From the NCBI RefSeq assembly GCF_014700075.1, contig NZ_JACXBU010000002.1, forward strand, positions 372,001 through 436,000: a DNA stretch of 64,000 nucleotides, in the 5' to 3' direction. A model generated the notes under the pieces. The model worked only from the letters and a program-made list of their open reading frames with translations, was not told the DNA's origin and searched no databases. Below, piece after piece: positions 1,632-37,037 of the stretch. Position 1 is the first letter of the stretch, and each line of letters opens with the position of its first letter. This stretch comes from Pseudomonas sp. JM0905a (GTDB lineage Bacteria > Pseudomonadota > Gammaproteobacteria > Pseudomonadales > Pseudomonadaceae). The translations under genes were made by a program, and so were the position numbers.

Positions 1632-5078
<3,447 letters not shown>

Positions 5079-16798: not shown

Positions 16799-17989
<1,191 letters not shown>

Positions 17990-17993
17990 TCAA

Positions 17994-20141
17994 TTAGCCG
18001 AAAAACTTCTGGCCGTTCTTGGCCATTTCGCGAAGCTTGGCGGTCGGGTGGTACAGCGCGCCCAGGTCAGCGTACTTGTCGGCGATGGCCACGAATTCGG
18101 CTACGCCAATGCTGTCGATGTAACGCAGTGCACCACCGCGGAAGGGCGGGAAGCCGATGCCGTAGATCAGGCCCATGTCGGCCTCGGCAGCGGTCGATAC
18201 GATGCCGTCTTCCAGGCAGCGTACGGTTTCCAGGCACAGCGGGATCATCATGAAGTTGATGATGTCCTCGTCGGTCAGCTCGCGCTGCTCCTTGACGATC
18301 GGCTTCAGCACTTCGTAGGCGACCGGGTCGGAGACCTTCTTCGGCTTGCCGCGCTTGTCCATTTCGTAGGCGTAGAAGCCCTTGCCGTTCTTCTGGCCCA
18401 GGCGGTTGGCGTCGTACATCACGTCGACGGCAGTCTTGCCTTCGACAGCCATACGATCCGGAAAGCCTTCAGCCATTACATCGCGACCGTGGTGGCCGGT
18501 GTCGATGCCAACCACGTCGGACAGGTAGGCCGGGCCCATGGGCCAGCCGAACTTCTCCATGATCTTGTCGATGCGGACGAAGTCGACGCCCAGTTCCAGC
18601 AGCTTGGCGAAGCCGCCGAAGTACGGGAACAGCACGCGGTTCACCAGGAAGCCGGGGCAGTCGTTGACCACGATCGGGTTCTTGCCCATCTTCTTGGCAT
18701 AGGCAACGGTGGTAGCAACAGCCACTTCGCTGGACTTCTCGCCACGGATCACTTCCACCAGCGGCATCATGTGCACCGGGTTGAAGAAGTGCATGCCGAC
18801 AAAGTTCTCCGGACGCTTCAGGGCCTGGGCCAGGTAGCTGATGGAGATGGTGGAGGTGTTGGAGGCGATGATCGCATCTTCGCGAACGTGGCCTTCCACT
18901 TCGGCCAGCACAGCGTGCTTGACCTTCGGGTTCTCGACCACGGCTTCAACAACGATATCGACGTTGCCGAAGTCGCCGTAGGACATGGTCGGCCGGATCG
19001 CATTCAGGGCTTCAGCCATCTTCTCGGGCTTCATGCGGCCCTTCTCGACGCGCTTGCCGAGCAGCTTGGAAGCTTCCTGCAGCCCCATCTGGATACCCTC
19101 TTCGCGGATATCCTTCATCAGGATCGGAGTGCCCTTGGAAGCGGACTGGTAGGCGATGCCGCCACCCATGATGCCAGCGCCGAGCACGGCAGCCAGTTTC
19201 ACGTCCTTGGCAGCTTCGTCGTACTGCTTGCCCTTTTTCTTCAGCTCCTGGTCATTCAGGAACAGGCCGATCAGGCTGGTGGCAACCGAAGTCTTGGCCA
19301 GCTTCACGAAACCGGCAGCTTCGACTTCCAGCGCCTTGTCACGGCCGAAGTTGGCCGCTTTCTGGATGGTCTTGATGGCTTCTACCGGGGCCGGGTAGTT
19401 CGGACCGGCCTGGCCTGCGACGAAGCCCTTGGCGGTCTCGAACGCCATCATCTGCTCGATGGCGTTGAGCTTGAGCTTTTCTAGCTTGGGCTGGCGCTTG
19501 GCCTTGAAGTCCAGCTCACCGGAGATGGCGCGCTTGACCAGGTCCAGGGCAGCGGCCGGCAGCAGCGCGGGAGTGACCACGGCGTCGACGGCGCCGACTT
19601 TCAGAGCGTCTTCGGCACGATTTTCCTTGCCGGAGGCGATCCACTCGATGGCGTTATCGGTACCGATGATGCGCGGCAGGCGCACGGTGCCACCGAAGCC
19701 CGGGTAGATACCCAGCTTGACTTCCGGCAGGCCGATCTTGGCGGCGGTGCTCATCACGCGGTAGTCGGCTGCCAGGCACATTTCCAGGCCGCCACCAAGG
19801 GCGATGCCGTTGATGGCGACAACGGTGGGGACTTCGAGGTCTTCGAAGGCGCTGAAGATCTTGTTGGCTTCGAGGTTGCCGGCAACCAGTTCTTCGTCGG
19901 GCAGCTGGAAGTTGTCGACGAATTCGGTGATATCGGCGCCGACGATGAAGACGTCCTTGCCGCTGCTGACGATCACGCCCTTGACCGAAGCATCGGCCTT
20001 GATGGCTGCCACTGCATCACGCAGTTCGTTCAGGGTGAGACGGTTGAACTTGTTGACGGACTCACCCTTGAGGTCGAATTTCAGTTCGACGATACCGCCC
20101 TCAAGAGCCTTAACCGTGATGGCTTTACCTTCGTAAATCAT
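17994..20141 (-). CDS. fadB: Fatty acid oxidation complex alpha subunit FadB
   Basis: Multifunctional enoyl-CoA hydratase / 3-hydroxyacyl-CoA dehydrogenase with isomerase and epimerase activity; forms the alpha2-beta2 complex with FadA. It is 715 aa. The crotonase half holds the catalytic Glu pair at 120 (LGGGLE) and 140 (GLPE). The NAD-binding motif [13 protein letters not shown] starts the dehydrogenase half at about residue 320, followed by [22 protein letters not shown] precedes the ATG at 20141; the open frame upstream to 20450 lacks family similarity. In pseudomonads this operon (fadBA5) is repressed by PsrA, and a PsrA-like site lies 150 bases upstream. Confidence 0.97.
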
Positions 20142-29224: not shown

Positions 29225-30124
29225 CTATGCGGGAAGCAGCAATGGGGATTGTTCCGGCAGATGAACCCGCAGCGCGCCCACCCGCGCGGCGATGCGCAGA
29301 CGCACGCTTTCCAGCGGCTCGCCATCGAGGTTCAGGTCCAACCCTTCCGGCGCCTCCACCTCCACCCAAGGCAAGCGCACGCTGACCGAAACCGATTCCA
29401 GGCCCAGGATGCCACCGGAGAGCAGCGTGGTCAGGGTGCCCACCACGTCCTGCGGCGCCGGAATGATGCAGAGGTCCAGCAGTCCATCGTCCACCGTTGC
29501 CTGCGGACACAGCGGGTGCCCGCCGCCCGCCTGGCGTCCATTGCCGATACCAAGGGCGAGAAACTCCCCTTCCCAGGTGAAGCCCGGTCCACGGAAGCGG
29601 CCGAACGCCGAATGCACCTCGGAAAAGCGGCTCAGACCGGTCAGGAAGTAGGCCGCGCCGCCCAATACCTTCTTCAGGTCTTCCGGGGTATTGGCAGTGA
29701 TCTTCGAACCAAACCCGCCGGTTGCCATGTTGAGGAACAGATGCCCATCGGCGTCCCCCAGGTCGATTGCGCGCGGCGCCACGTCCAGCAACGCCAGGGC
29801 ACCCTGCGGATCCAGCGGCACGCCGGCCGCCCGCGCAAAATCATTCGCGGTGCCCAGGGGCAGCAGTGCCAAGCTGGCGTCACTGCCGGCCTGGACCACC
29901 GCTTCGGCCACGTCGCGCAGGGTGCCGTCGCCCCCACCGGCGATCAGCGTCCGATAGCCCGCAGCCAGGGCTTCTTCCACCAGCCGGCGGGCGTCACCGC
30001 CTTCCCAGGTCACCCGCACCGCAAGCTCCCAGCCCGCAGCGCGACGCGCCTGGACGGCCGCTCGCACCTCATCGTTGGACGCCTGCTTGCCGTGCAGGAT
30101 CAGCAAGGCCTTGCGCTCGACCAT
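29225..30124 (-). CDS. yegS: YegS-like lipid kinase (diacylglycerol kinase catalytic domain)
   Basis: A 299-aa cytoplasmic kinase. The nucleotide-binding signature AGGGDGTLRDVAEA lies near residue 65, with LLPLGTANDFARA following, as in YegS and DgkB. The family phosphorylates lipids such as phosphatidylglycerol or diacylglycerol; the in vivo substrate is uncertain. I chose the ATG at 30124 because GGAGG lies 6 bases upstream; an ATG four codons earlier overlaps that ribosome-binding site. It is a single gene, divergent from pirin across a gap of about 200 bases that is AT-rich near pirin. Confidence 0.9.
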   Translation of the reverse strand: MVERKALLILHGKQASNDEVRAAVQARRAAGWELAVRVTWEGGDARRLVEEALAAGYRTLIAGGGDGTLRDVAEAVVQAGSDASLALLPLGTANDFARAAGVPLDPQGALALLDVAPRAIDLGDADGHLFLNMATGGFGSKITANTPEDLKKVLGGAAYFLTGLSRFSEVHSAFGRFRGPGFTWEGEFLALGIGNGRQAGGGHPLCPQATVDDGLLDLCIIPAPQDVVGTLTTLLSGGILGLESVSVSVRLPWVEVEAPEGLDLNLDGEPLESVRLRIAARVGALRVHLPEQSPLLLPA

Positions 30125-30331
30125 GATCGCCTCCATCGCTCGGGATTGGCCGGAGTATAGGACCGTGAGCGCTCCAGCCCAGTGTTATCACGGCGCTCTC
30201 GGCAATCAATTGATCCATTTTTTTGATTGATAAAGCGGATAAATTGCGCTTTTACGCAGTTATATGATGATTGATCATGCCACCCATTCCTCCCGGAGAA
30301 CTCCCTCCGCGAGCAGACAGGAGACCCGAAC

Positions 30332-31138: not shown

Positions 31139-32698
31139 TTACGCCGGATAGCCGGTGATATCCCTGATCTTCCGGTACAGCGGCCGCAGCTGCTTGTACA
31201 TCCCCTGGTAAACCTCCCGGTACAACCGCTCGTAGGTGAGCCGCGCCTGCGGGTCAGGCTGGAACACCCGACCCACCCGCGTCATGGCGCGGATCGCCGT
31301 GGGGAAGTCCGGGTGCAGACCCAGCCCCACAGCGCAGTCGATGGCCGCGCCCAGGCCCGACGTCTCGTAGACATGGGGCCGCTCCGCCGGCAGGCCGAAG
31401 ATATCGGCGGTCAGTTGCATGGCCGCATCGCTCTGGGAGCCGCCGCCCGACACCCGCAGGCGGGTGATGCTTGTGCCGGAGCGTTTCTCGATCTGCTCCT
31501 TGCCCTGGCGCAGGGCGTAGGCCAGACCCTCTAGGATGGCGCGGTAGATGTGCGCACGTGTGTGCACGTCGCCGAAACCTATGATCGAGCCCTTCGCCTC
31601 CAGGCCCGGCTCGCGAATGCCGGGTGACCAGTAAGGCTGCAGCATCAGCCCCATGGAGCCGGGCGGCACGCTGTTGACCAACTCGTCGAACAGCGCCTCG
31701 GGCTCCACGCCCAGTTCCTTCGCCTGCTGCATCTCGCGCAGGCCGAATTCCTGCTTGAACCAGCTGACCATCCAGAAGCCTCGGTAGATCATCACTTCGG
31801 TGTTGAAGTGATCGGGAATCGCGGCCGGATAGGGCGGGATCAGCGGGATGGTTTCCAGGTACTTGCGCCGCGTGGTGTTGATGGTCGCGGTCGTGCCATA
31901 CGACAGGCAGGCGGTGCTCGGCTCGACGCCACCGGCGCCGATCACTTCGCAGGCCTTATCGGCCCCCGCGGCGACTAGCGGCAGCCCCTCCGGAATACCG
32001 GTATGGCGGCTGGCTTCGGCAGTTATGCTGCCCAGGCGCTCGCCGGGCTTGAACAGCTCCGGCAACTGCTCGCGACGCACCGGCATCGACTGCCACTTCC
32101 AGTCCCGTGGGGCAGCCCATTGCAAGCGCTTGTAGTCGAACGGCAGATAGGCCACCTGGCACGCCACCGAGTCGACGAACCGGCCACACAGGCGATGGCT
32201 GAGGAAGCCCGAAAGCAGCAGCACCTTGTGGGTCCGCGACCAGAGCTCGGGCTGGTTCTGCGCTACCCAGTTGGCCTCGGCCTGGGCGCGGAAATAGTCC
32301 ACCGTGCCTTCCAGGCCAATCGCCTTGAACAACCAGCCCCAGGCCCCCTTGATGCGCCCCTGTACTTCGGCCTGGCGCTGGTCCAGCCAGAGGATGGCCG
32401 GGCGCAACGGCTTGCCCTGTTCGTCAACGTTGATCACCGTGCCGCGCTGGGTGGTCAGCGACACGCCACGGATCAGGCTGCGATCGATGTTCACCGACTC
32501 CCAGAGCAGCCGACAGGCTTCGCCCAGGCTGTCCCAGTAATAGTCCGGGTCCTGTTCGGCCCAGCCGGGCTGGCTCGAATAGTAGGCCTCGAGCGGCACC
32601 TTGCCCTTGCCCACCAGGTTGCCCTCCAGGTCGAACAGCAGCGCCCGCACGCTCTGGGTGCCGTTGTCGATGGCCAGCAGATAGCTCTTTTCGCTCAC
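31139..32698 (-). CDS. FGGY-family carbohydrate/polyol kinase
   Basis: A 519-aa cytoplasmic ATP-dependent kinase of the glycerol/xylulose kinase superfamily. The phosphate-1 motif DNGTQSVRALLFD is at the N-terminus. LSYGTTATINTT forms the phosphate-2 region, and the FGGY-C signature appears as RLRVSGGGSQSDAAMQLTADIFG. It does not look like GlpK itself. The GTG start at 32698 is supported by AAGGAC 5 bases upstream and by the 18-base spacing from the GlpD-like gene. As the last gene of an operon with a GlpD-like dehydrogenase and an alkyl-DHAP-synthase-like protein, it probably phosphorylates a glycerol-type alcohol. The substrate is unknown. Confidence 0.88.
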   Translation of the reverse strand: MSEKSYLLAIDNGTQSVRALLFDLEGNLVGKGKVPLEAYYSSQPGWAEQDPDYYWDSLGEACRLLWESVNIDRSLIRGVSLTTQRGTVINVDEQGKPLRPAILWLDQRQAEVQGRIKGAWGWLFKAIGLEGTVDYFRAQAEANWVAQNQPELWSRTHKVLLLSGFLSHRLCGRFVDSVACQVAYLPFDYKRLQWAAPRDWKWQSMPVRREQLPELFKPGERLGSITAEASRHTGIPEGLPLVAAGADKACEVIGAGGVEPSTACLSYGTTATINTTRRKYLETIPLIPPYPAAIPDHFNTEVMIYRGFWMVSWFKQEFGLREMQQAKELGVEPEALFDELVNSVPPGSMGLMLQPYWSPGIREPGLEAKGSIIGFGDVHTRAHIYRAILEGLAYALRQGKEQIEKRSGTSITRLRVSGGGSQSDAAMQLTADIFGLPAERPHVYETSGLGAAIDCAVGLGLHPDFPTAIRAMTRVGRVFQPDPQARLTYERLYREVYQGMYKQLRPLYRKIRDITGYPA

Positions 32699-32716
32699 GA
32701 TGCGTCCTTGTTCTTG

Positions 32717-34291
32717 TTATTCGGGCAGGCTGTAGCAGCGCAGGCAGAGCGCCAGGTAGTCGGCCTCTTCCTGCGCCCAGCGGGCGTCATCCCACCCCAG
32801 CAGCGGCTGGCACAGGGCACGGACGCGGGGCAGTTCTCCACGCGCGCCTTCGGGCAGCAGCAGGCCGAGCCGGGTCCGGCGCAGCATCAGGTCATCCAGG
32901 TGCAGCACCAGCTCGCCTTCCGCCGCCCAGGCCAGTTCGGCCCAGAGCGTATCGGTGGCGCCGACTCGTTCATTGCCCAGCCGCGCGACCCAGCGCGCCA
33001 GTTCCACCACTGTCCGCCCATGGCGCCCGACCAGACGCAGGCGCTGGGCAGGCGACAGGGCCGGAAGCGCGGGGGCGGCAACCGGTGGGAATACCGGGCC
33101 GTCGCCGTCCTCCACGGCACGACCGGCAGCCCCTGAGCACGCGTGCAGCACTTCCAGCGCCAGCAGGCGGAAGGTGGTCAGCTTGCCGCCGGCGAGGGTC
33201 ACACAGCCGGGCTCGGTCCAGAGGACATGCTCGCGTTTTTCATCCGAAGGCTTGATCTGCGAGTCGCCGTTGCTCACCACCGGCCGCACACCGGCCCAGG
33301 TGGACAGCACATCGGCGTGTGCAATCGCCGCCGCCGGGAACTGCAATGCGCAGGCCTGCAGCAGATAGTCCACTTCGGCCTCGCTGATGCGCGCGTCCTG
33401 GTCCAGCCCTTCCCCATGATCGAGGTCGGTGGTGCCGATCACCGTCGCCCCCTCCCAGGGGAACACGAACACCGGACGCCCATCGGTGGGGTGCATGAAG
33501 CTGATGGCATGGGCCAGCGGCAGACGCCAACCCGGCACCAGTAAGTGGCTGCCACGCAGCGGGCGGATGTGTTCGGTTCCCTGGGGCGCGCGCAGGCGAT
33601 CAGCCCAAGCGCCCGTCGCCAGCGCCACGGCGCGGGCTCGGAAAGTGAAACGCCGGCCGCTCTCCAGGTCCTCGGCCTCCAGGCCGTTCACCCTGCCCTG
33701 CTCACGCTTGAGGTCGACGACGCGCATGCCATTCAACGCCTCGCCGCCTTCGGCGCGCGCTTCGCCCAGCACCCGCATGACCAGTCGGGAATCGTCCGTC
33801 ACCGCGTCGTAGAAACGGGTGCCGCCCTGCAGCCCGCCTTCGCCCAGGCCAGGAACCAGGTAGCGCAGTTGCTGCAGGGGGTAATAGAGGTGATTGCGTC
33901 GTCCGGCCAGGGCGTCATAGACCGCCAGCAGGCTGCCGAACACGCGCGGCCCCGGAAAGCCGCCGCGATGGGGCATGACGAAGCTCAGCGGCTCCACCAG
34001 ACCGGGGGCTTCGGCCAGCAAGCGCTGGCGTTCACGTACCGAAGCACGGGTCAGCCCAAACTGCCCCTTGGCGATGTAGCGCAGGCCGCCATGGACCATC
34101 TTCGACGAGCGACTGGAGGTGCCCCAGGCAAAATCCCGCTGTTCCAGCAGCAGGCATTTCCAGCCACGCCGAGCCGCTTCCCGAAGGATGCCCGCGCCAC
34201 AGATGCCGCCACCGACGACGATCAGGTCCCAGTCCCGGGCGGCCAGCTCCGGCAAGGCCGCGGCGCGCCAGGCGGCGTTCCAGGTATCCAT
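32717..34291 (-). CDS. GlpD-like FAD-dependent glycerol-3-phosphate dehydrogenase/oxidase
   Basis: A 524-aa flavoprotein. The FAD dinucleotide-binding motif is at residues 23-30 (IVVGGGICGAGI), followed by TSSRSSKMVHGGLRYI, a hallmark of GlpD. GTTDLDHGEG and the later TLAGGKLTTFRLLA are also GlpD-like, and a C-terminal DAO_C domain is present. The enzyme should oxidise glycerol 3-phosphate or a 1-substituted analogue to the ketone, passing electrons to quinone. Its start lies 2 bases after the upstream stop (TGAACATG), so translation is coupled. Because it travels with an AGPS-like protein, an alkylated glycerol phosphate is a reasonable alternative substrate. Confidence 0.9.
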   Translation of the reverse strand: MDTWNAAWRAAALPELAARDWDLIVVGGGICGAGILREAARRGWKCLLLEQRDFAWGTSSRSSKMVHGGLRYIAKGQFGLTRASVRERQRLLAEAPGLVEPLSFVMPHRGGFPGPRVFGSLLAVYDALAGRRNHLYYPLQQLRYLVPGLGEGGLQGGTRFYDAVTDDSRLVMRVLGEARAEGGEALNGMRVVDLKREQGRVNGLEAEDLESGRRFTFRARAVALATGAWADRLRAPQGTEHIRPLRGSHLLVPGWRLPLAHAISFMHPTDGRPVFVFPWEGATVIGTTDLDHGEGLDQDARISEAEVDYLLQACALQFPAAAIAHADVLSTWAGVRPVVSNGDSQIKPSDEKREHVLWTEPGCVTLAGGKLTTFRLLALEVLHACSGAAGRAVEDGDGPVFPPVAAPALPALSPAQRLRLVGRHGRTVVELARWVARLGNERVGATDTLWAELAWAAEGELVLHLDDLMLRRTRLGLLLPEGARGELPRVRALCQPLLGWDDARWAQEEADYLALCLRCYSLPE

Positions 34292-34293
34292 GT

Positions 34294-35889
34294 TCAGTCC
34301 TCGAGGAGGACGCCGGGAGCGAGGCGCCCCTCGGGGTCGAAGTGCTGCGCCAGGCTGCGTAGCGCGGCCATGCCCAGCGGACCCTTCTCCACCGGCAGCC
34401 AGGGCGCGTGGTCGCGGCCGACGCCGTGCTGGTGGCTGATGGTGCCGCGATTCTGCGCGATCACTTCACTAGCGGCGCGCTTCAACTTGCTCCAGCGCGC
34501 CAGCGCTTCTGCGTAGCTGCCACCCGGACGGTAGACGTAGGTGGTGTAGATGCTCGATCCCTCGCCGTAGACATGGGACAAGTGGGTGAACACGTGGACG
34601 CGCTCGCCCTCCTCCTTCAACCCGGTGCGCAAGCTGGCTTCGATCTTGTTGAGCAGGCTGTCGACGTTGGTCCAGTCGGTGGCGGTTTCCAGAGTGTCCA
34701 CCACGTAGCCGGCGCTCCAGAGGGCGTGACGCAGGTAGGGGAAGCGGAAGCGGTTGTGTTCCCACTTCTTGCCCAGCAGCGTGCCGGTGAACACGCCGCC
34801 AAAGCCCTTCAGCAGACGACGCGCCTGCTTCAGCGAAGCGGCGTTCTGCGCACGGTTGCCGGTGACGCCGAAGGTCAGCATGCACTTGCCAGCCCCGGCA
34901 CCGCGCAGGGCGAGGTACTTCTCCAGCAAGGCGATCTGCCCAGGATGGCCGGCCAGCGCCAGCTGGGTTTCCGTCTCGATGGCATTGGACAGGCGCAGCA
35001 TGGACAGGGGCACCCGCGCCTGGGCGAGGCTGCGGATCCCCTTCAGCGCCTGGCTCCAGTTGGGCAGGAAGACCGCGTAGAAGGACTCCTGCTCGGCCAA
35101 CCGGGTGACCCGCACCCGTACTTCGGAGATCACCCCGAATCGCCCTTCCGAGCCGAGCACCACTTCGCGCAGGTCAGGGCCTGCCGCCGACGCCGGGAAG
35201 GTGGGCAGCGCCATGGGGCCGGCGAAAGTCTCCAGGGTGCCGCCAGCGAACAGCTGCTCGATGCGGCCGTAGCGCAGGGACTGCTGGCCGCTGGAACGGC
35301 TGGCGACCCAGCCACCGAGGGTGGACAGCTCCCAGGACTGCGGGAAATGGCCGAGGGTGTAGCCACGGGCCCGCAGCTGGCTTTCCACCTGCGGGCCACT
35401 GGCACCAGGGCCGAAGGTGGCGATCTGGCTGTCCTCGTCCAACTCCATCAGGCGGTTCATGCGTTCCAGGGAGACGGTCAACACCGGCCGCTCGCCGGCC
35501 TGGGGATTGATGTGGCCGGCTACCGACGTACCACCGCCATAAGGAATCAGTACCAGGTCACGTTCCACGGCCAGGCCCAGCAACTGGCGGATCTGCTCCG
35601 GGGTTTCCGGGAAGGCTACGCCGTCGGGGAACAACCCGAAGTCACCCTCACGCATCGCCAGCCAATCCGGCAGGCTCTGGCCACGGGCGTGACGCACGCG
35701 GGTCTCGGCATCCAGGGAGATCAGCGGGTGGGGGGCCAAACGCGAAGCCGGCACGCGGGCCAGCACCTGTTCCAGGCTGGCATCGGGCAGGGGCTGCCCT
35801 TCACTGATGCGCTCGGCGAGGAACATCGCTCCATTGGCGGGCAGTTCCACCACCGTCGCTTCATCGCCCCAGCCGTTCCACCGTCGCAT
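34294..35889 (-). CDS. Alkyldihydroxyacetonephosphate synthase-like FAD-binding protein
   Basis: A 531-aa VAO/PCMH-type flavoprotein. PYGGGTSVAGH (116-126), GHFPQSWELSTLGGWVASRS (180-199) and GSEGRFGVI (246-254) line up by eye with the FAD- and substrate-binding segments of mammalian AGPS. The C-terminal HQHGVGRDHAPWL (486 onward) occupies the place of the HHHGVG active-site loop, with one His replaced by Gln. AGPS exchanges the acyl group of acyl-DHAP for a fatty alcohol to form the ether bond; bacterial homologues are poorly characterised. AAGGAG lies 7 bases before the ATG. First gene of the operon, divergent from an AraC-type regulator. Confidence 0.88.
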   Translation of the reverse strand: MRRWNGWGDEATVVELPANGAMFLAERISEGQPLPDASLEQVLARVPASRLAPHPLISLDAETRVRHARGQSLPDWLAMREGDFGLFPDGVAFPETPEQIRQLLGLAVERDLVLIPYGGGTSVAGHINPQAGERPVLTVSLERMNRLMELDEDSQIATFGPGASGPQVESQLRARGYTLGHFPQSWELSTLGGWVASRSSGQQSLRYGRIEQLFAGGTLETFAGPMALPTFPASAAGPDLREVVLGSEGRFGVISEVRVRVTRLAEQESFYAVFLPNWSQALKGIRSLAQARVPLSMLRLSNAIETETQLALAGHPGQIALLEKYLALRGAGAGKCMLTFGVTGNRAQNAASLKQARRLLKGFGGVFTGTLLGKKWEHNRFRFPYLRHALWSAGYVVDTLETATDWTNVDSLLNKIEASLRTGLKEEGERVHVFTHLSHVYGEGSSIYTTYVYRPGGSYAEALARWSKLKRAASEVIAQNRGTISHQHGVGRDHAPWLPVEKGPLGMAALRSLAQHFDPEGRLAPGVLLED

Positions 35890-35961
35890 GCCGTTCTCCT
35901 TATTCGGGTTGTTTCGAAGGTTTTCGATGGCTGCCTATACTAGCCAGCCGCCCAAAGGCGT

Positions 35962-35982
35962 CACTGTCGGATCGGGACAGTG
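35962..35982. promoter_or_regulatory. Dyad in the AGPS-operon / AraC divergent promoter region
   Basis: CACTGTC and GACAGTG form a perfect 7-bp inverted repeat with a 7-base spacer. It sits 73 bases from the AGPS-like start and 33 bases from the AraC start, a sensible place for an operator. No footprint knowledge supports it. Confidence 0.45.
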
Positions 35983-36014
35983 GCAATCGCCAATCAGGAC
36001 ATAACAAGAAACAC

Positions 36015-37037
36015 ATGCAAGCGCTCGGCTATACCTCGGTCCCCGCACTTCTCAAGTACCTGCGTCATGCGGAACATCTCGGCATGGATCAGGCTTCCAC
36101 CCTGGCCGCAGCCGGCATTCGCCCGGACGACCTCGCGGACAACAGCAAGCGCCTGCCCAGTGAAGTCCACGAGCGCCTGCTGACCTACCTGATCCGCGAA
36201 TCCGGCGACACCCTCTTCGGCCTGCATTCGGCGCGCTACGTGCAGCCCGGCTCCTGGAGCGTGTTGGGCTACATCACCATGAACTGCGCCACCCTGGGCG
36301 AGGCCATGAGCCGCATCGCCCCCTACGAGAAACTGGTCGGCGACATGGGGGTGAGCCGCGTGGAAGCCGACGGCGACAGGGTGCGGATGATCTGGAGCTG
36401 CCGCCACCAGGACCCGGCGATCCGCCGCCACATGGTGGAGAACGTGCTCGCATCCTGGCTGCTTTACGCCCGCTGGATCGCAGACATGCAGCGCTCGCCG
36501 CAGGAAGTATGGTTCGAACACGCTCAGCCCGAAGCGACGCGCATCGAGGAATACGAAGAAGTGTTCGGCTGCCCGGTGCGTTTCGAGCAGCCCTGCAACG
36601 CCCTGCTGGTACCGATGGAGTACCTGGCCGTCCCCCTGCGCCAGGCGGACGCCAACCTGCTGCGCACCCTGGAAGAGCACGCCCTGGCCCTGATGGCCGG
36701 ACTGGATGACGACGAGCCGCTGCCGCAACGGGTGAAGAACGCCCTGCGCCTGCTGCTCAAGGACGGCCTGCCGCGCAAGGAACGGGTGGCGGAGAAATTC
36801 CATATGACGGTGCGCACCCTGCAACGCCACCTGCAGCAGGCCGGCACCAGCTATCAGCAGATCCTCGATGAATTGCGCCGCGAACTGGCCGAGCACTACC
36901 TGCTACGCAGCGACCTGCCGATCCAGGACATTGCCTGCTACCTGGGCTTCACCGAGTCCCGCTCCTTCCACCGCAGTTTCAAGGCATGGACGGGGCAGAC
37001 GCCGGGGGAGTACCGGGAGGCGAAGAGGCAGGGGTAA
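36015..37037 (+). CDS. AraC-family regulator with Arabinose_bd (OruR-type) sensor domain
   Basis: A 340-aa regulator. Residues 15-200 resemble the PF12625 sensor domain of OruR-like regulators (SVLGYITMNCATLGEAMSRI). The C-terminal AraC DNA-binding domain contains two HTH units: RKERVAEKFHMTVRTLQRHL and IQDIACYLGFTESRSFHRSF, then WTGQTPGEYR. It is divergent from the kinase/GlpD/AGPS operon and is the obvious candidate to control it. The effector is unknown; some relatives respond to fatty or amino compounds. The ATG has a weak ribosome-binding site (AAGAAAC). Confidence 0.9.
   Translation: MQALGYTSVPALLKYLRHAEHLGMDQASTLAAAGIRPDDLADNSKRLPSEVHERLLTYLIRESGDTLFGLHSARYVQPGSWSVLGYITMNCATLGEAMSRIAPYEKLVGDMGVSRVEADGDRVRMIWSCRHQDPAIRRHMVENVLASWLLYARWIADMQRSPQEVWFEHAQPEATRIEEYEEVFGCPVRFEQPCNALLVPMEYLAVPLRQADANLLRTLEEHALALMAGLDDDEPLPQRVKNALRLLLKDGLPRKERVAEKFHMTVRTLQRHLQQAGTSYQQILDELRRELAEHYLLRSDLPIQDIACYLGFTESRSFHRSFKAWTGQTPGEYREAKRQG

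Follow-up and report, generated by a model that had tools for sequence, protein, structure and literature searches.

Which reaction sequence is carried out by a bacterial operon that joins an FGGY-type kinase, a GlpD-like dehydrogenase dependent on flavin adenine dinucleotide (FAD) and a flavoprotein resembling alkyl-dihydroxyacetone phosphate (alkyl-DHAP) synthase (AGPS)? Such an operon lies in the stretch of Pseudomonas sp. JM0905a DNA analysed here, which comprises 64,000 nucleotides (nt) of contig NZ_JACXBU010000002.1 (positions 372,001 to 436,000, forward strand) and is referred to below as the window. The comparative evidence leans towards a catabolic role, and the best-supported reading, to which we give slightly less than even odds, is that the three genes (the triad) form a three-step module for the breakdown of 1-O-substituted glycerols, most likely 1-O-alkyl-sn-glycerols, ending in cleavage of the ether bond by AGPS chemistry run in reverse; both substrate and direction we infer. 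The first-pass annotation had described three packed minus-strand genes and a divergent AraC-type gene, and its coordinates proved exact, with 2 nt separating the AGPS-like and GlpD-like genes and 18 nt the GlpD-like and kinase genes; the Pfam and NCBIfam families of the products also agreed. The divergent regulator scores 683 bits against the NCBIfam GliR equivalog model (cut-off 570), and the divergence of a GliR equivalog from AGPS-GlpD-FGGY genes identifies the locus as a GliR/PA3026-PA3024 operon. Among named relatives, the AGPS-like protein is closest to five Pseudomonas records, including P. resinovorans, with 97 to 91% identity.

The operon itself is not new, and it has already been described with the opposite direction proposed. 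In P. aeruginosa it corresponds to PA3026-PA3024, the promoter of which is bound and activated by GliR/PA3027, a regulator that also raises the mRNA of PA3464 (PlcA, a phospholipase C) and PA3342; on the basis of in silico assignments, its authors proposed a path from glycerol to alkylglycerone phosphate, i.e. biosynthesis (PMC8151288). By their count, 12 genomes out of 1748 contain the cluster, four with all genes and eight more that are similar. The alkylglycerol breakdown suggested in the first-pass annotation runs counter to the published direction, and what stands of it is that the gene context and the changes in the kinase pocket fit a 1-O-substituted glycerol that is phosphorylated, oxidised and cleaved. 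No report of alkylglycerol catabolism by an operon of the PA3026-PA3024 type was found among the open-access literature matches listed, a scope outside which subscription papers mostly fall.

In the catabolic scheme, the FGGY kinase would phosphorylate the free sn-3 hydroxyl of a 1-O-alkyl-sn-glycerol to give 1-O-alkyl-sn-glycerol 3-phosphate. The GlpD-like enzyme would then oxidise C2 to produce alkyl-DHAP, the product of AGPS, and transfer of the electrons to the respiratory chain would pull the reaction forward. Finally, the AGPS-like flavoenzyme working in reverse would form a flavin-DHAP adduct, from which the alkoxide would depart as fatty alcohol, and either water or a fatty acid could release the adduct, with DHAP or acyl-DHAP, respectively, as the product. 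Because AGPS chemistry proceeds via a flavin-DHAP adduct, it is chemically reasonable that water or a fatty acid should take the place of the fatty alcohol as nucleophile. The support for this scheme comes from sequence comparisons, namely the conservation of the triad, the retention of AGPS residues along with a distinctive loop, the separate clade formed by the AGPS-like proteins, a contrast in acyltransferase context and the kinase pocket; we also count for it the replacement of the kinase by a lipid kinase in some loci, the coexistence of canonical GlpK with the triad and the activation of PA3464 by GliR.

The expectation that all three genes are conserved together held both within the Pseudomonadaceae and in genomes beyond them. 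Of 80 Pseudomonadaceae loci, nearly all of them titled Pseudomonas, 78 have the AGPS-like, GlpD-like and FGGY genes in one contiguous run (gaps below 400 nt), the exceptions being one at a contig end (L040) and one with a 447-nt gap (L048), and this linkage is not due to chance. In a sample of the class, 12 of 369 genomes gave a match at an E-value of 1e-40 or better, and nine of these matches, the window's own genome included, are of the triad type (at least 44% identity and placement in the triad clade); in a sample of the phylum, 18 of 398 genomes matched, 16 with at least 55% identity. Thirteen loci were fetched from outside the window's family (hereafter non-family loci; AGPS-like proteins 44-65% identical). 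The GlpD-like gene follows the AGPS-like gene in all 13 and an FGGY gene then follows in 12, with the order uninterrupted in 11: an opposite-strand AAA gene is interposed before the FGGY gene in L120, and in L121 (genome G038) other genes come after GlpD and an FGGY relative (60% identical) lies on a separate contig. Presence of genes was scored by tblastn, because the longest open reading frame (ORF) caller missed some true genes. Clustering of 164 called neighbour ORFs, 20 of which were scanned for function, revealed beyond the triad itself GliR-type regulators in three loci and three clusters each confined to two loci; among the 20 scanned, no neighbour function was shared by more than two loci.

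AGPS is the best match of the AGPS-like protein in both sequence and structure. The protein shares with eukaryotic and bacterial AGPS the fold, the FAD domain and a WNGWG motif, and its R299, R387, Y448, H486, Q487 and H488 align with R419, R515, Y578, H615, H616 and H617 of guinea-pig AGPS, the numbering of which is used for AGPS positions throughout. R419, R515, Y578, H615 and H617, to which functional roles are ascribed in the guinea-pig enzyme, are all retained. The loop reads SHQHGVG in the window protein as against SHHHGVG in guinea-pig and Dictyostelium AGPS, the HQH-for-HHH change being present as first described, and the histidine triplet typical of AGPS is thus interrupted by Gln at 616. 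This Gln is found in all 87 Pseudomonadaceae rows of the alignment (83 distinct sequences) and in 12 of 13 non-family triad rows, and His occupies the position in all 22 rows (20 distinct) from other AGPS-like clades; as far as the alignment goes, HQH is a real clade marker. A tree of 51 rows groups the 30 of the triad type (24 distinct) into a single clade with a support of 0.885. The window protein falls outside the separate clade of characterised eukaryotic AGPS (guinea-pig and Dictyostelium), which also holds the bacterial L119, L124, L125 and L126 and the alphaproteobacterial L138 and L139. Two kinds of bacterial 'AGPS', which annotation merges as FAD-binding oxidoreductase, are now separated.

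The two kinds also keep different company, in that a kinase and a GlpD-like gene adjoin the window type, rather than acyltransferase, reductase or short-chain dehydrogenase/reductase (SDR) genes. A PF01553 acyltransferase accompanies AGPS in four of the six bacterial loci of the eukaryotic-AGPS clade. It adjoins AGPS in L119 and L124. Compact ether-lipid synthesis sets are seen in L125, where a fatty acyl reductase-acyltransferase (PF01553) fusion protein (2106-4538) lies beside AGPS, and in L126, where acyltransferase (PF01553) and AGPS form one protein (283-2751); L124 and L125 additionally carry an SDR. Acyltransferase, reductase and SDR are the expected company for ether-lipid synthesis, and tblastn detected no relatives of the triad's GlpD-like protein or kinase in these four loci. 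Unlike an ether-lipid biosynthesis operon, the triad has no PF01553 gene next to it in any of the 13 non-family loci (Fisher p 0.004 for adjacency in 4/6 against 0/13, in a small sample with loci treated as independent), and the Pfam model, run over whole genomes, found none on the window's own contig. A tblastn search for acyltransferases likewise gave no match near the 13 non-family loci, and matches in two of the 80 Pseudomonadaceae loci. Somewhere in the genome, PF01553 is present in all 14 triad genomes tested, and one genome (G112) carries both kinds of AGPS.

The kinase scores below every specific NCBIfam cut-off listed, including that of GlpK (TIGR01311; 156 bits against 590), and in a fold search it matches glycerol kinase, LsrK and xylulokinase about equally. 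Against a single comparator, the Thermococcus glycerol kinase, it keeps R85, W104 and the catalytic D247, with G86 and T272 replacing a Glu and a Phe. The Glu position holds A, G, S or Y in all 12 non-family kinases and Gly in all 79 from the Pseudomonadaceae; across all 91, the Phe position is Thr and the catalytic Asp is kept. As both lost residues contact glycerol in glycerol kinase, their loss would fit a substrate with a substituted O1, with the caveat that other FGGY kinases differ there too, the alphaproteobacterial pair (L138 and L139) also having Thr. The triad resembles the GlpK/GlpD pathway in that a kinase is followed by an FAD dehydrogenase; however, both proteins fall well under the respective cut-offs, the GlpD-like protein scoring 268 bits (251 in a second scan) against 360 for GlpD (NF008899). 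Of the 16 triad genomes in our sample, 15 also encode a canonical GlpK that scores above cut-off, in contrast to the published statement that no glpD/glpK homologs were found outside Pseudomonas (PMC8151288), and the window's genome has both canonical GlpK and canonical GlpD.

In two actinobacterial loci, those of Streptomyces fungicidicus and Tsukamurella tyrosinosolvens, the FGGY kinase is replaced by a YegS lipid kinase in a set of GlpD-like, TetR, AGPS-like and YegS-type genes. These share with the window a GlpD relative, an AGPS-like protein and a kinase, and differ in the kind of kinase, the HHH loop and the TetR regulator. PMC4564863 tabulates, in order, Rv2249c (glpD1), Rv2250c (a regulator), Rv2251 (a flavoprotein) and Rv2252 (diacylglycerol kinase). 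A YegS gene was also found in 68 of the 80 Pseudomonadaceae loci, on the same strand in all 68 and less than 500 nt from the FGGY gene in 27. Because a lipid kinase is linked to the GlpD-like and AGPS-like genes, the substrate of the dehydrogenase is suggested to be a phosphorylated lipid.

Several observations weigh against the catabolic reading. In six of the 16 triad genomes (G210, G431, G544, G171, G148 and G037), a search that left out the GlpA family gave no strong GlpD relative (above 33 bits) other than the triad's own GlpD-like protein, which may therefore act on plain glycerol 3-phosphate (G3P); in G347 the single GlpD relative found was not assignable. A genome of 1.5 Mb (G037:C60, locus L120; 94% complete) keeps the triad with no GlpK above cut-off and no other GlpD relative. 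The deepest branch of the triad clade (L123) carries the triad but has HHH. The 20 neighbour ORFs scanned, out of 164, included no alcohol or aldehyde dehydrogenase. PF01553 does occur within 10 kb of the triad in two of the 13 loci, at about 17981-18361 on the opposite strand in L116 and at about 1720-2112 in L118 (genome G112), there on the same strand as the triad, two genes past FGGY and after GGDEF/EAL and glutamate-synthase-type genes. On this looser count (4/6 against 2/13) the Fisher p is 0.046, with loci again treated as independent, and the contrast is therefore claimed for adjacent genes only. The alphaproteobacterial pair, two of the six loci on the other side, has a kinase instead of an annotated acyltransferase, and a third actinobacterial locus (Nonomuraea, L142) has GlpD-like and AGPS-like genes in which company YegS was not found. 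GliR site candidates in the window number about as many as expected by chance: motif A gives only weak ones, with three mismatches, at 35966 and 35979 on the minus strand (at most two mismatches are seen in 34, and at most three in 78, of 79 Pseudomonadaceae intergenic regions). In P. aeruginosa, deletion of PA3026-PA3024 had no phenotypic effect in rich medium, with citrate or glycerol, or on BIOLOG plates (PMC8151288), and PA3026 was lower on n-octadecane, with ratios of 0.5 and 0.57 (PMC5491041); that PA3025 is tabulated among the genes that cis-2-decenoic acid affects is uninformative here (PMC4412052).

Among the alternatives, the one that survives best, though unlikely, retains the same three steps and applies them to a non-lipid 1-O-substituted glycerol, such as a glycosyl-, aryl- or short-chain glycerol ether. 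FGGY kinases are mostly sugar or polyol kinases, and two alphaproteobacterial plasmid loci pair AGPS-like and FGGY genes with those of a sugar ABC transporter and a polyol dehydrogenase. However, no transporter recurred among the neighbour ORFs scanned, a lipid kinase takes the place of the FGGY kinase in the two actinobacterial loci and GliR co-activates a phospholipase gene (PMC8151288). The plasmid loci in question (L138, 8031-17431, and L139, 7878-16779; Shinella and Roseibium) carry an AGPS-like gene with Thr at R515 and then an FGGY kinase gene, together with a UgpC-type sugar ABC transporter, a glycerol or iron-containing alcohol dehydrogenase and an SDR; they are a candidate parallel module for a hydrophilic substrate and were left out of the triad counts.

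Quite unlikely is an oxidative route to ether lipids, in which the kinase would turn monoacylglycerol into lysophosphatidate, the GlpD-like enzyme would oxidise this to acyl-DHAP and the AGPS-like enzyme would swap in a fatty alcohol. The same enzymes could in this way supply acyl-DHAP without an acyltransferase, and the AGPS residues are kept; but the FAR C-terminal domain is confined to three of 16 triad genomes, all of one genus, no reductase recurs beside the triad among the neighbours scanned, and Pseudomonas is not known to make ether lipids. A quinone-linked GlpD-like enzyme would moreover re-oxidise alkyl-G3P, and biosynthesis is disfavoured because ether-lipid synthesis would thereby be undone.

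Lower still stands the published proposal (PMC8151288, section 2.5), whereby glycerol passes via G3P to DHAP and acylglycerone phosphate from another source is turned into alkylglycerone phosphate by the AGPS-like enzyme. It gains from the six genomes with no other strong GlpD relative and from the presence of PF01553 somewhere in every triad genome tested, and loses by the canonical GlpK of 15 triad genomes, the canonical GlpK and GlpD of the window's own genome, a kinase pocket unlike that of glycerol kinase and the lack of an acyltransferase adjoining the operon. A plain glycerol pathway is disfavoured as well, those same six genomes notwithstanding. Identification of the AGPS-like protein as a D-2-hydroxyacid dehydrogenase is very improbable, as sequence and fold comparisons both speak against it and uphold its initial description as being of the AGPS type.

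Returning to the catabolism of glycerol ethers, alkylglycerol monooxygenase (AGMO), a tetrahydrobiopterin-using oxygenase unrelated to the triad enzymes, has alkylglycerol breakdown in common with the proposed pathway. It has been termed the only known enzyme degrading alkylglycerols (PMC7911779). We tentatively put forward the wider possibility that the triad constitutes an oxygen-independent ether-cleaving pathway, its last step taken by an AGPS relative with an HQH loop, and that bacteria have in the AGPS-like flavoenzymes a class of ether-cleaving catalysts, to which relatives encoded on the plasmids of cyclic-ether degraders would also belong.

An AGPS-like flavoprotein with Met at the R515 position and HHH is encoded next to a glutathione S-transferase gene on plasmids of Xanthobacter dioxanivorans YN2 and Ancylobacter polymorphus ZM13 (L149, NZ_CP063363.1; L151; L155, NZ_CP083240.1). 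Genes for glycolate oxidase and aldehyde dehydrogenase accompany it in YN2, and one for malate synthase and, at a greater distance, a diiron monooxygenase cluster in ZM13. This protein may act as an ether-cleaving enzyme when cyclic ethers are degraded. A further AGPS-like gene lies between two Tn3 transposases on a plasmid of Moraxella osloensis (L140, 7953-13431), together with genes for an acyl-CoA synthetase and an AraC regulator.

The features of the window are collected in the table. Its triad is taken as orthologous to PA3026-PA3025-PA3024, with which it shares families, order and the divergent GliR, and differs from the P. aeruginosa locus in that a plus-strand pirin gene sits between the operon and the YegS-type kinase gene. 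The GliR targets of P. aeruginosa include a DUF2804 gene, and the family is present in seven of 16 triad genomes against none of 14 control genomes. The window's genome (G000) has two DUF2804 genes (C11:755105-756073 and C22:621913-622803), upstream of one of which no GliR motif with at most two mismatches was found.

Table. Positions of the operon, its regulator and associated features in the window.
Feature	Position	Strand	Remarks
AGPS-like flavoprotein (PA3026 type)	34294..35889	-	531 aa; Pfam FAD_binding_4 + FAD-oxidase_C
GlpD-like FAD dehydrogenase (PA3025 type)	32717..34291	-	524 aa; Pfam DAO + DAO_C
FGGY kinase (PA3024 type)	31139..32698	-	519 aa, GTG start; Pfam FGGY_N/FGGY_C
GliR (PA3027) AraC-type activator	36015..37037	+	divergent; Pfam Arabinose_bd + HTH_18, NCBIfam GliR equivalog
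Divergent promoter region	35890..36014		125 nt between AGPS-like and AraC-type genes
YegS/DAGK-type lipid kinase (PA3023 type)	29225..30136	-	same strand as operon; possible auxiliary kinase

The catabolic reading provides the GliR operon of a well-studied species with a testable function. If it is true, the operon would provide an enzymatic route, besides AGMO, for breaking glycerol ethers, and AGPS chemistry would be used both ways in nature; it could also explain the bacterial use of host or marine ether lipids.

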